This document shows, in pieces, positions 22,506-25,200 of a stretch of 64,000 nucleotides of DNA. Origin of the DNA: Salinivenus lutea. Its GTDB lineage: Bacteria > Bacteroidota > Rhodothermia > Rhodothermales > Salinibacteraceae. The position numbers and the translations under genes were made by a program. Under the pieces are notes generated by a model. The model was not told the DNA's origin. It searched no databases and worked only from the letters and a program-made list of their open reading frames with translations. The stretch's first letter is position 1, and each line of letters starts with the position of its first letter. The stretch covers positions 1-64,000 of the forward strand of contig NCRC01000013.1 in NCBI GenBank assembly GCA_002894685.1. The letters are read 5' to 3'.

Positions 22506-23792
22506 ATGGCGTGGTGTATCGACCGTCGATCGTCCCTCCCCTCCCTCCCGCTGTGGGGGATCCTCTGTGGACTGCTGTTCCTCGGGCCGCTCGCCGCGCC
22601 TCGGGCCCAGGCGCAGGACTGGAGCCAGGCGCCCCGCGTCTACATTGACTGCGACCGGTGCGACTACAACCACATCCGCCGCGAGGTGACGCTCGTCCGC
22701 TACGTGCGCGAGCCGCAGCAGGCCGACATCCACGTCTTTGTTACGGTGGAGGGGACGGGCGGGGGCGGCGAGCGGTACGACTTCTCCTTTCTCGGGCGGC
22801 GGGACTTTGAGGGGGTCGACTATTCGCTCACCCACACCGTCGGTCGCGACGCCACGGGCGACGAAGTGCGCGAGGAGGTGAACCGCATGCTGGAGGTGGG
22901 GCTTACGCCCTACCTCCTGCACACCCCACTTGGGACGACCCTCTCCGTGGAGTACCCGGAGCGCGAGCCGGACGAGACGTCCTCGGAGGCAGCAGAAGAT
23001 CCCTGGAACCACTGGGTGTTCGAGATCTACGGCGGGCGGGTTCGGATGAGCTACGAGTCCAACCAGAGCGACTTTCGCTCCCGGTGGGGCTTGTACGCCG
23101 ACCGGGTCACGGACACGTGGAAAACGCGCCTGCGTCCCTACTTCAACTTCAGCTTCGTCCGCATCGAGCAGGAAGACGGCGACCCGGTCAGCAGCCGCAC
23201 CCACCGCCACGGGTTCAACAGCTACGCCATTCGGAGCCTGACCCCACACTGGTCGGTGGGCCTCTTCGGAGACTACGTGACCCGGAACGACCGCAACCTC
23301 AAGCACCGAGTGCGCCTCAATCCCGGCGTCGAGTACAGCCTCTTTCCCTACGAGGACGCCACCCGACGCTCGATCACGTTCACGTATCAAGTGGGGGTGT
23401 CGCTGGTCGACTACTACGAGGAGACCATCTTCCTTCGCACGTCCGACCGGCTCGCGAACCACGAGCTTCAGGCCTCGGTGAACTTCGAACAGCCGTGGGG
23501 GGAGGTGGACGCGGGCATTCTCGGGGCGCACTACTTCCACAACGCCTCTCGATACCGGGCCGAGCTATTTGGAAGTGCCTCCGTCCGGATTGTGGAGGGC
23601 CTCTCGCTCAACTTCTCGGGGAGTGTCGAGCGGATTCAGGACCAGCTGTCACTTCCTCGCGGGGAGACGTCCGCCGAGGACGTCCTGCTGGATCAGCGCG
23701 AACTGGCAACCGACGTGTCGGTCACCGGATCGATTTCGCTCTCCTATACCTTCGGCTCCGATTTTGCCGACGTGGTCAACACCCGGTTTTGA
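22506..23792 (+). CDS. Outer-membrane beta-barrel protein with N-terminal CDxCD-type domain
   Basis: 428 residues from ATG 22506. A signal peptide ends Arg-Ala-Gln-Ala-Gln-Asp. The N-terminal globular domain (about 40-165) starts with Val-Tyr-Ile-Asp-Cys-Asp-Arg-Cys-Asp and has Val-Arg-Glu-Pro-Gln-Gln-Ala-Asp-Ile-His-Val-Phe-Val-Thr and a run of glycines. That pattern is conserved in a family of uncharacterised periplasmic/outer-membrane proteins of Bacteroidota and Gemmatimonadota. The C-terminal two-thirds has alternating aromatic strands and ends in Arg-Phe, as expected for a beta-barrel. Function unknown. It follows the PAS kinase in the same direction but with its own 340-bp gap. Confidence 0.65.
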   Translation: MAWCIDRRSSLPSLPLWGILCGLLFLGPLAAPRAQAQDWSQAPRVYIDCDRCDYNHIRREVTLVRYVREPQQADIHVFVTVEGTGGGGERYDFSFLGRRDFEGVDYSLTHTVGRDATGDEVREEVNRMLEVGLTPYLLHTPLGTTLSVEYPEREPDETSSEAAEDPWNHWVFEIYGGRVRMSYESNQSDFRSRWGLYADRVTDTWKTRLRPYFNFSFVRIEQEDGDPVSSRTHRHGFNSYAIRSLTPHWSVGLFGDYVTRNDRNLKHRVRLNPGVEYSLFPYEDATRRSITFTYQVGVSLVDYYEETIFLRTSDRLANHELQASVNFEQPWGEVDAGILGAHYFHNASRYRAELFGSASVRIVEGLSLNFSGSVERIQDQLSLPRGETSAEDVLLDQRELATDVSVTGSISLSYTFGSDFADVVNTRF

Positions 23793-23877
23793 GCACGCCC
23801 TTTGGCCCGGCGACGTGCGCTGGCTCGGGGCCGCCCGCAGGGGCGGGACGCCGGGCCGTTCTTCCCCCCAGGGATCC

Positions 23878-23944
23878 AAAAACGACAAAAGGCCCGCCGT
23901 CGGCTTGAAACCGGGGCGGACCAAAACTTCTTTTTGCTACTGGA
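23878..23944 (-). ncRNA. Candidate small RNA, about 67 nt
   Basis: Start is placed about 7 bases after the TATATT -10 box (23956-23951). The 3' end is set by a hairpin: GGTCCGCC (23922-23915) pairs with GGCGGGCC (23898-23891, one U-G wobble), followed by TTTTGTCGTTTTT. The 5' part is A-rich and unstructured. No open frame with a start codon fits inside. Function unknown. Confidence 0.45.
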
Positions 23945-23950
23945 CTCACT

Positions 23951-23981
23951 AATATAGCAAATTACACCCCCGGGGTGTCAA
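23951..23981 (-). promoter_or_regulatory. Sigma-70-like promoter with palindromic operator in the spacer
   Basis: On the minus strand TTGACA (23981-23976) is followed by a 19-bp spacer and TATATT (23956-23951), preceded by TGC, so an extended -10 is possible. The spacer holds ACACCCC-C-GGGGTGT (23964-23978), a 7-1-7 palindrome positioned to block RNA polymerase. The only downstream unit before a terminator is the candidate small RNA. Confidence 0.5.
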
Positions 23982-24289
23982 GGGGAGTTTGTGACAGACT
24001 TGGAAACCTTGCCTGGGCCGCCCGGCCTCGCCCCCGGTCCGTCGACGACGCCCCTGGGCGCCCCACCCCAGTCCGGTCGCTCGGCCTCGGCGGTCACGTG
24101 TAACCCGCCGGGAGACTCTTCGTCCATTGGGTGCGGCTCGGGCGGCCCCACCGGCTCATGGAAGCCCTCTTGCCGCCTCCCTTGACGGCCGCTCCCGGTC
24201 GAGGACCGCGCCGGGGACGATGCGCAGGGGCCCACAGCATATGTAGAGGTGCTTGTTGACCATTCAATAGCTGAGGTTCGCAAGCACGT

Positions 24290-24330
24290 GCCCGGCCGGG
24301 ATGCCCCCTCATCCCGGTCGGGCCTTTTTT
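24290..24330 (+). terminator. Strong intrinsic-terminator hairpin with alternative pairings
   Basis: GCCCGGCCGGGATG (24290-24303) pairs with CATCCCGGTCGGGC (24310-24323, one G-U-type mismatch), followed by C and TTTTTT. CAAGCAC (24281-24287) just before it can pair with GTGCTTG at 24249-24255 or with GTGCTT at 24331-24336, so two folds compete. It lies about 150 bases before the next gene. Confidence 0.6.
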
Positions 24331-24483
24331 GTGCTTCTGTTTCTTTGGTCCCGTCGACGGGCCCCCGGGACTGGGGAGCGTCGATGGGGGCAGAAAATCG
24401 CGCGCCTGCCGTTACTTTCGGCCCGGTCGGTTCGGCTTGGGGGGTGAACGGGCGCCTCCCCTCACCGAACGAACGGCCTGCTT

Positions 24484-25137
24484 ATGCATCTACGCCCCTG
24501 GACAATCCTGGCGTCCCTCGTCGCCGGGTTTCTCGTTTGCACGCCCGTTGCGGCGCAGGGACAGCCGACCGACGGGTGGTGGGTGTCGGTCAGCATTGAG
24601 GCCGGATCGGACCGGCCCGCGGACCAGCGGCGCGACCGTCGAGGCCCCCGCAGCCGCTCCCATCGGCCCCACATTCCGAAGGGGCACCGTCCGCCCCCGG
24701 GACAGTGCCGCCTGTGGTTCCCCGGCCGCCCGCCCGGCCAGCAGCCGCCGCCCACCTCCTGCCCAAAGGCGCACAGGGGACGCTCCGGCTCGGCCCTGGT
24801 CATCACCCCCTCCGGCAGGCGTCATCGCCCAGCCCCGCGGCAATGGCATCGCCGCCCCGCGGAAGACCTCGTGTTTCGCCGTCGGCCAAGCCGTGAGGAG
24901 GGGGTCCGCTTCGGCGCGGAGGTTCTCGTCGACCTTCTCGGGGCGCGCGGGTACCGGCAACTGCAGTCCCGGCGGAAGCGCCTCGGGGTGAGCGGGTCGC
25001 TGGAAGGCCGCTGGATTTCCACCGGCCCGTCCGGCGCGCATGTGCTCCAGGTGCGAGCCGGGAAGCACCCCCTCGCTGAACTGGCCGACCGCACCGGAGA
25101 CCTTCGCGTCGAGGCGCTGTTCTTCGCCGCGAAGTAG
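24484..25137 (+). CDS. Secreted protein with Pro/Gly/Cys 'PPPGxCRxWxPGxPPGxQPPPxxC' motif
   Basis: 217 residues from ATG 24484. A signal peptide ends Pro-Val-Ala-Ala-Gln-Gly. After an Arg/Asp-rich linker there is a motif (about residues 62-93): Pro-Pro-Pro-Gly-Gln-Cys-Arg-Leu-Trp, Pro-Gly-Arg-Pro-Pro-Gly, then Gln-Pro-Pro-Pro-Thr-Ser-Cys. Short proteins with this same motif occur in many bacterial phyla and are uncharacterised; the two Cys probably pair. The C-terminal part has a hydrophobic Val-Leu-Val-Asp-Leu-Leu segment and a beta-rich end. No enzyme function can be assigned. A hairpin leader lies upstream. Confidence 0.6.
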   Translation: MHLRPWTILASLVAGFLVCTPVAAQGQPTDGWWVSVSIEAGSDRPADQRRDRRGPRSRSHRPHIPKGHRPPPGQCRLWFPGRPPGQQPPPTSCPKAHRGRSGSALVITPSGRRHRPAPRQWHRRPAEDLVFRRRPSREEGVRFGAEVLVDLLGARGYRQLQSRRKRLGVSGSLEGRWISTGPSGAHVLQVRAGKHPLAELADRTGDLRVEALFFAAK

Positions 25138-25200
25138 GGGGGCGCGGACCTCCCGCCTCACAATCGGCCCCACTCGGCGGCCGGCGTGATGTGCGCTTCC

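Follow-up and report, generated by a model that had tools for sequence, protein, structure and literature searches.

Several families of regulated bacterial sRNAs, among them Qrr, PrrF, and Yfr2, are present in multiple copies. In transcription-attenuation leaders, a promoter is followed by a short leader and an intrinsic terminator. MerR-type promoters carry a dyad that is central in the spacer, and OmpR/PhoB-type operators are made of direct repeats. The short transcription units described here resemble the Qrr, PrrF, and Yfr2 families in that each genome holds several short, intrinsically terminated copies with a shared promoter that is predicted to be regulated; they differ in that those families keep a pairing or protein-binding sequence, while the 5′ tail of the units is their least conserved part and Hfq was not found in the genomes of the genus. 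They resemble attenuation leaders in the order of promoter, short leader, and intrinsic terminator, sometimes with a gene 25–120 nt further on, but half of the units have no co-directional gene behind them. Judged from their sequences, the units are a new family of a familiar kind, with the unusual trait that the promoter and the pairing are kept, and not the RNA sequence. There are few descriptions of small RNAs, or of how they are controlled, in Salinibacter. The available parts of the open-access literature on Salinibacter small RNAs, transcriptomes, and promoter motifs contain no report of such a family: in those of a study of the sRNAs of a halite community (PMC7002113), the single mention of Salinibacter concerns a gene that has an antisense RNA, and in those of a study of Salinibacter ruber genomes (PMC6060240), the words small RNA, non-coding, and intergenic are absent.

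The window analyzed here is a stretch of 64,000 nucleotides, bases 1–64000 of contig C5 of the genome G000 (3.55 Mb), whose host is probably a salt-loving bacterium of the Salinibacter/Salinivenus type. The parts of the unit, in positions of the window, are as follows:

23991–24005, minus strand: upstream direct repeat, TTCCA (24005–24001) and GTCAC (23995–23991), with an 11-bp period
23976–23981, minus strand: −35 box TTGACA, read from the sequence
23964–23978, minus strand: 15-bp GC dyad within the 19-bp spacer, ACACCCC-G-GGGGTGT, with C at its center on the plus strand
23975–23967, minus strand: dyad core CCCCGGGGG, the sole part of the dyad common to the family
23951–23956, minus strand: −10 box TATATT, from the sequence and from family conservation
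23880–23944, minus strand: expected small RNA of about 65 nt, its start and end deduced from the −10 box and the T tract
23891–23922, minus strand: terminator hairpin, an 8-bp outer stem with one G-U pair, plus an inner stem
23922–23915 with 23898–23891, minus strand: outer stem arms GGTCCGCC and GGCGGGCC, whose one G-U wobble is A-C on the plus strand
23878–23890, minus strand: T tract TTTTGTCGTTTTT, read from the sequence
23880–23985, minus strand: covariance-model match to the window copy, 77 bits

All the elements that the original prediction had placed on the minus strand (TTGACA, the 19-bp spacer, TATATT, the hairpin, and the T tract) were present on re-reading. The 67-nt interval that it gave between promoter and hairpin had to be corrected, because the −10 box and the hairpin stem are 28 nt apart; about 67 nt is the distance from the −10 box to the T tract if the hairpin is counted as well. 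The hairpin was also said to favor the minus strand, where it has one wobble versus a mismatch on the plus strand, and the fold energies agree: the minus-strand RNA folds with −23.0 kcal/mol (z −2.84, with 2 of 200 shuffles equally good), and the plus-strand RNA with −17.3 kcal/mol (z −0.84). A generic promoter scan misses the window promoter because it allows spacers of 16–18 nt only. Generic terminator-like matches around the window copy numbered 8 in 4 kb versus 2.6 expected, which taken alone is weak evidence. As had been stated, no same-strand gene stands behind the window copy; the next gene downstream, 22509–23792, is convergent, is without a Pfam match, and is preceded by a large gene for a PAS-rich histidine kinase. 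The window copy lies about 85 bp behind the stop of gene 22509–23792, as would be expected if it were a plain bidirectional terminator of this gene, with promoter-like sequence nearby by chance. However, dozens of unrelated places have the same combination of promoter and hairpin, the plus-strand fold is weaker, and the blastn copies and covariance-model matches described below already contradict this explanation, which we consider hardly credible. On sequence comparison, the window unit is not an isolated chance site, and it is almost certainly a real promoter-plus-terminator unit. RNA polymerase would start near 23944 and stop at the hairpin, with a transcript of about 65 nt as the result; nothing follows the window copy, and therefore this RNA would be its only product.

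Further copies were found by several searches. In blastn searches of 41 genomes with a 131-nt query, four additional copies were detected in G000 (E 2e-13 to 3e-6), and one copy each in G003, G012, and G007; the copies within the same genome were 75–85% alike, over part of their length only. When up to 3 mismatches were allowed, the promoter pattern occurred at 31 places in 12 of the 13 genomes of the genus, while the reversed pattern occurred at 0, and nearly all of these 31 places are followed by an intrinsic-terminator hairpin (a script reported no hairpin at L020, L021, and L035, but at L035 one can be recognized by eye). With a covariance model built from 28 copies, 80 matches were obtained at E ≤ 0.01, spread over 13 of 13 genus genomes with 2–10 per genome; 41 of the 80 had E ≤ 1.2e-10, and 13 of these 41 were outside the 28-sequence training alignment; the E-values of this model are rough. 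Outside the genus, 8 of 87 relatives had a covariance-model match, with only G041 (3e-11) and G018 (1e-7) below 1e-6. The exact promoter pattern was found in large collections in five genome contigs, all of Salinivenus or Salinibacter, and in one viral contig. When the copy from a 35.5-kb plasmid was used as query against plasmid records, all seven matches were from Salinibacter (pSR35 itself included), and the window copy as query gave no match in plasmid records. Conservation and covariation in relatives had been set beforehand as a test of the unit, and both were observed, in 13 of 13 genus genomes and as compensatory changes in the hairpin. The Rfam search that had been proposed as well gave 0 matches in the window at the gathering threshold, and at E ≤ 1, in a comparison of 18 of 37 loci with Rfam 15, no match overlapped a copy. 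With no Rfam family and no report in the literature as far as it was available, this short-unit family is previously unlisted. The comparison with relatives supports the minus orientation and the expected RNA of about 65 nt. We favor, with moderate confidence, the explanation that the window unit is an orphan copy from a family of short transcription units that extends across the genus and is under one putative regulator, and each unit is probably a regulated small RNA or leader under that shared regulator.

The conserved architecture of the promoter was apparent from the comparison of 36 non-redundant copies, a set selected for a TTGAC-like −35 box by leaving out 5 copies without one. In positions before TTGAC, information was found for T at −24 and GTCAC at −14 to −10, followed by TTGAC itself, CCCGGGGG, ATTTT, and TAnnnT, and there was almost no conservation upstream of −27. 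In this selected set, the TTG of the −35 box was present in 36 of 36 copies, and its A and C in 35 of 36. The direct repeat at −24 to −10, with an 11-bp period, was absent from the original prediction; in the window copy its second half is closer to the family consensus TTCAC...CGTCAC than its first half. The spacer was 19 bp long in 36 of 40 copies, 18 bp in three, and 20 bp in one. The 15-bp palindrome that had been proposed as the operator did not hold for the family, because all seven arm pairs are present in 1 of 40 copies, which is the window copy; most copies have 3–4-bp arms, and what the family keeps is the direct repeat and a dyad core, CCC(C)GGGG(G), which lies toward the −35 box with its center about 5 bp into the spacer. 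When the dyad was left open in the search pattern (TTGAC N13 ATTTTG...), 31 of 31 sites had the C-run/G-run, intact or degraded, and the reversed control gave 0 sites; therefore the set of −35, ATTTT, and −10 elements and the dyad go together. The promoter is also exclusive to the family, in that every place that fitted the dyad pattern with no more than one mismatch was also in the list of covariance-model matches, when coordinates were compared by eye. In sum of its conserved positions, the promoter is the core of the unit, and the conservation of its elements suggests that it is regulated. A putative DNA-binding regulator could switch the promoter by acting at the direct repeat, at the GC dyad of the 19-bp spacer, which is over-long, or at both. 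A promoter class that is found only with a short hairpin RNA provides a handle on this regulator and its regulon.

The promoter recalls two known classes, and we claim membership in neither of them, only a likeness. As in MerR-type regulated promoters, where the spacer is 19–20 bp, a 19-bp spacer holds a dyad between the −35 and −10 boxes; the difference is that the dyad of the Salinibacter units is near spacer position 5 instead of in the middle, and that no MerR protein is linked to the units. As in OmpR/PhoB-type operators, a direct repeat whose period is 11 bp precedes the −35 box, but a simple pattern for this repeat gave no match ahead of pstS. This comparison to Pho control, which was prompted by the 11-bp repeat, used one pattern, T[TC][CA]C-N7-T[CT]AC, and covered the 420 nt upstream of each pstS-family match; the pattern was absent at 12 of 12 loci. 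Control by LexA was considered because dinB is located beside some copies, and no spacer promoter with CC.GGGG was seen by eye before 21 lexA-like genes. Several umuD-type genes are preceded by a different motif, TGTTTGAAATATGTGT. The motif TGTTTGAAATATGTGTGCTGGTT is common to the upstream regions of several UmuD-like genes (L060–L067) and is perhaps the LexA site of the genus, which has two lexA-like paralogues. The consensus of sigma-54 promoters is GG-N10-GC, and its GC is not kept across the copies, so that a sigma-54 promoter was rejected. A small HTH protein, considered as the common regulator, is present in 6 of 13 genomes and absent from G000. The search did not find the regulator: the lexA-type and pstS-type promoters were without the sites of the units in these comparisons, which leaves LexA and Pho control unsupported, and the genome of the window is without the small HTH protein.

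The pairing of the hairpin was analyzed in a MAFFT alignment that was not fitted to the structure (alignment A1, with L020 and L021 left out). Standard pairs made up 89.4% of cells, compared to a shuffled mean of 82.2%, and 9 of 13 pairs were changed on both sides, compared to 2.8 in shuffles; neither value was reached in any of 500 shuffles, in a type of test that can be inflated by the relatedness of the sequences, and versions with slid positions were at most 51% paired. RNAalifold alone gave the same outer stem, with 7 pairs, of which 4 had double changes. The covariation indicates that the hairpin is under selection for pairing, through compensatory changes. At seven sets of orthologous places, identity was 85% in the promoter core and 75% in the terminator part, with 66–69% in the flanks. 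The direct repeat, at 64.5%, was no better than the flanks, and the 5′ tail, at 58%, was the lowest part and under the flanks. This tail is purine- and A/T-rich, and its information is low save for an A tract at a fixed distance, in an analysis from which 3 copies without the anchor, the window copy among them, were dropped. Both tracts, A and T, may be no more than extensions of the terminator. The length of the hairpin differs much among copies, and no small coding frame within the RNA was common to the copies by eye.

The finding that promoter and pairing are kept while the letters of the RNA drift raises the question of how a small RNA could have a role without a fixed sequence. An Hfq-dependent sRNA, which would have a conserved unpaired seed for pairing, is not favored, given that conservation is lowest in the 5′ tail; Hfq (PF17209) was detected in 0 of 13 genus genomes, while 5 of 14 control genomes were positive. 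Since selection appears to keep the promoter and the pairing, and not the letters, the RNA more likely acts by its structure or through the act of transcription. Action by structure could consist in binding of the RNA to a protein or to RNA polymerase, rather than in a conserved pairing seed. It is possible, although we rather doubt it, that the window copy acts in trans. Alternatively, the conserved element could be the DNA itself, with the binding sites titrating the regulator or signaling locally, and the short RNA arising as a by-product. The promoter is indeed the most conserved part while the RNA letters drift, but such an operator decoy would leave the compensatory upkeep of the hairpin unexplained, and we regard it as very improbable. 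What the sequences show is the family itself, its conserved promoter architecture, the covariation, and the exclusivity of the promoter; from these we infer that the units are transcribed under control of a regulator and have a function.

The genes around the copies were predicted with a simple codon-usage caller, and the count of orientations was based on the 45 copies that scored at least 44 bits. Among 33 non-redundant contexts with both neighbors, the downstream gene was co-directional in 17 and convergent in 16, and this even distribution argues that a gene behind the unit is not required. About 15 gene families start within ~180 nt behind some copy, often 25–50 nt past the T tract. The distance from the T tract to the gene start was +23/+25 for a 64-aa gene, +42/+45/+47 for the FAD oxidase gene, and +7 to +106 for the small HTH gene. 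The genes behind copies include:

msrB (SelR), in four genomes (G000, G012, G009, and G001) at one syntenic place, with msrB in G011 (L152) outside this count
a gene for an AhpC/TSA protein
a gene for a Fer4_19-CDGSH protein
a gene for an NmrA protein
a gene for an FAD amine oxidase, in three genomes
dinB, in two genomes
a gene for an SBF transporter
two genes for small cysteine-rich proteins
a gene for a small HTH protein, in four genomes and the viral contig
several genes for unknown proteins

Five of the ~15 downstream families are redox-related, a theme that is suggestive only, since it was noticed after the fact and without a background rate. In five loci (L098, L101, L106, L109, and L125), a copy is located in the corresponding gene pair and msrB was not found among the matches listed; therefore copies stand with or without the gene. 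These observations bear on the explanation that the unit is a cis-acting 5′ leader that throttles the next gene, with orphans left where the gene was lost or never gained. The many gene families that begin close behind a copy, and the presence of msrB in four genomes and not in these five loci, speak for it, and the even downstream orientation speaks against it, as does the retention of full promoters by orphan copies such as the window copy with its 77 bits. We regard this explanation as unlikely. A co-directional gene directly downstream, as in attenuation leaders, is present in part of the family and absent at the window copy. Within the favored explanation, a regulated small RNA unit could double as an attenuated leader at the approximately half of family sites where a same-strand gene follows the terminator.

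Genes of mobile-element type are common neighbors of the copies, including those for phage integrase, HsdM, Rep3, and relaxase, and the plasmid copies have ParA and thermonuclease-family genes nearby. On several Salinibacter ruber plasmids (L196, L199–L204), the unit faces the 3′ end of the thermonuclease-family gene, sometimes with a gene for a Uma2-family endonuclease between them. The IMG/VR viral contig (L138:4274-5375) carries, in this order, the unit, a gene for a small HTH protein 62% identical to that of G003, and ParA; phage records contained no match to the small HTH protein. In G012, the relative with the best-matching flanks, 1.3 kb corresponding to window 23839–25146 is absent, with the flanks 96% and 92% identical. 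The unit is held within this 1.3-kb indel and therefore came or went together with the frame 24484–25137. By this comparison, the window copy is dispensable.

The plasmid and viral copies, the mobile-type neighbors, and the gain or loss between G000 and G012 could suggest a dispersed repeat that moves by transposition or is carried by plasmids and phages, without a function for the cell. However, no conserved ends or terminal repeats were seen, with conservation stopping at about −27 upstream of TTGAC; at the G012 junction, nothing but the short microhomology CCGCCCGC is visible, and the indel does not have the size of the unit. The limited and partial likeness of same-genome copies, and orthologous sites common to different species among the matches listed, also argue against such a repeat, which we find improbable. 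A broader proposal, which we offer as doubtful, is that one genus-specific regulator drives the units on chromosome, plasmids, and phage, that their RNAs act through structure or transcription in a redox or damage response while their sequence can change freely, and that the units alternate between orphan RNA and gene leader with the gain and loss of genes.

Two unusual settings of family members were also observed. In G000, a unit (L006:1500-3076; G000:C57, from ~149218) occupies the leader position of a CRISPR-like array with repeats GGTGACTCCGCACACGCGGAGATAGACCC; it immediately precedes the array, and its hairpin separates the promoter from the first repeat. In five other loci (L175, L184, L170, L171, and L179), weak members of the family continue into longer regions that carry tandem hairpins resembling terminators, with the pattern GGCC(T/C)GTCTC(A/G)GAG...CTC(T/C)GAG(G/T)C(A/G)GGCCATTTCT.
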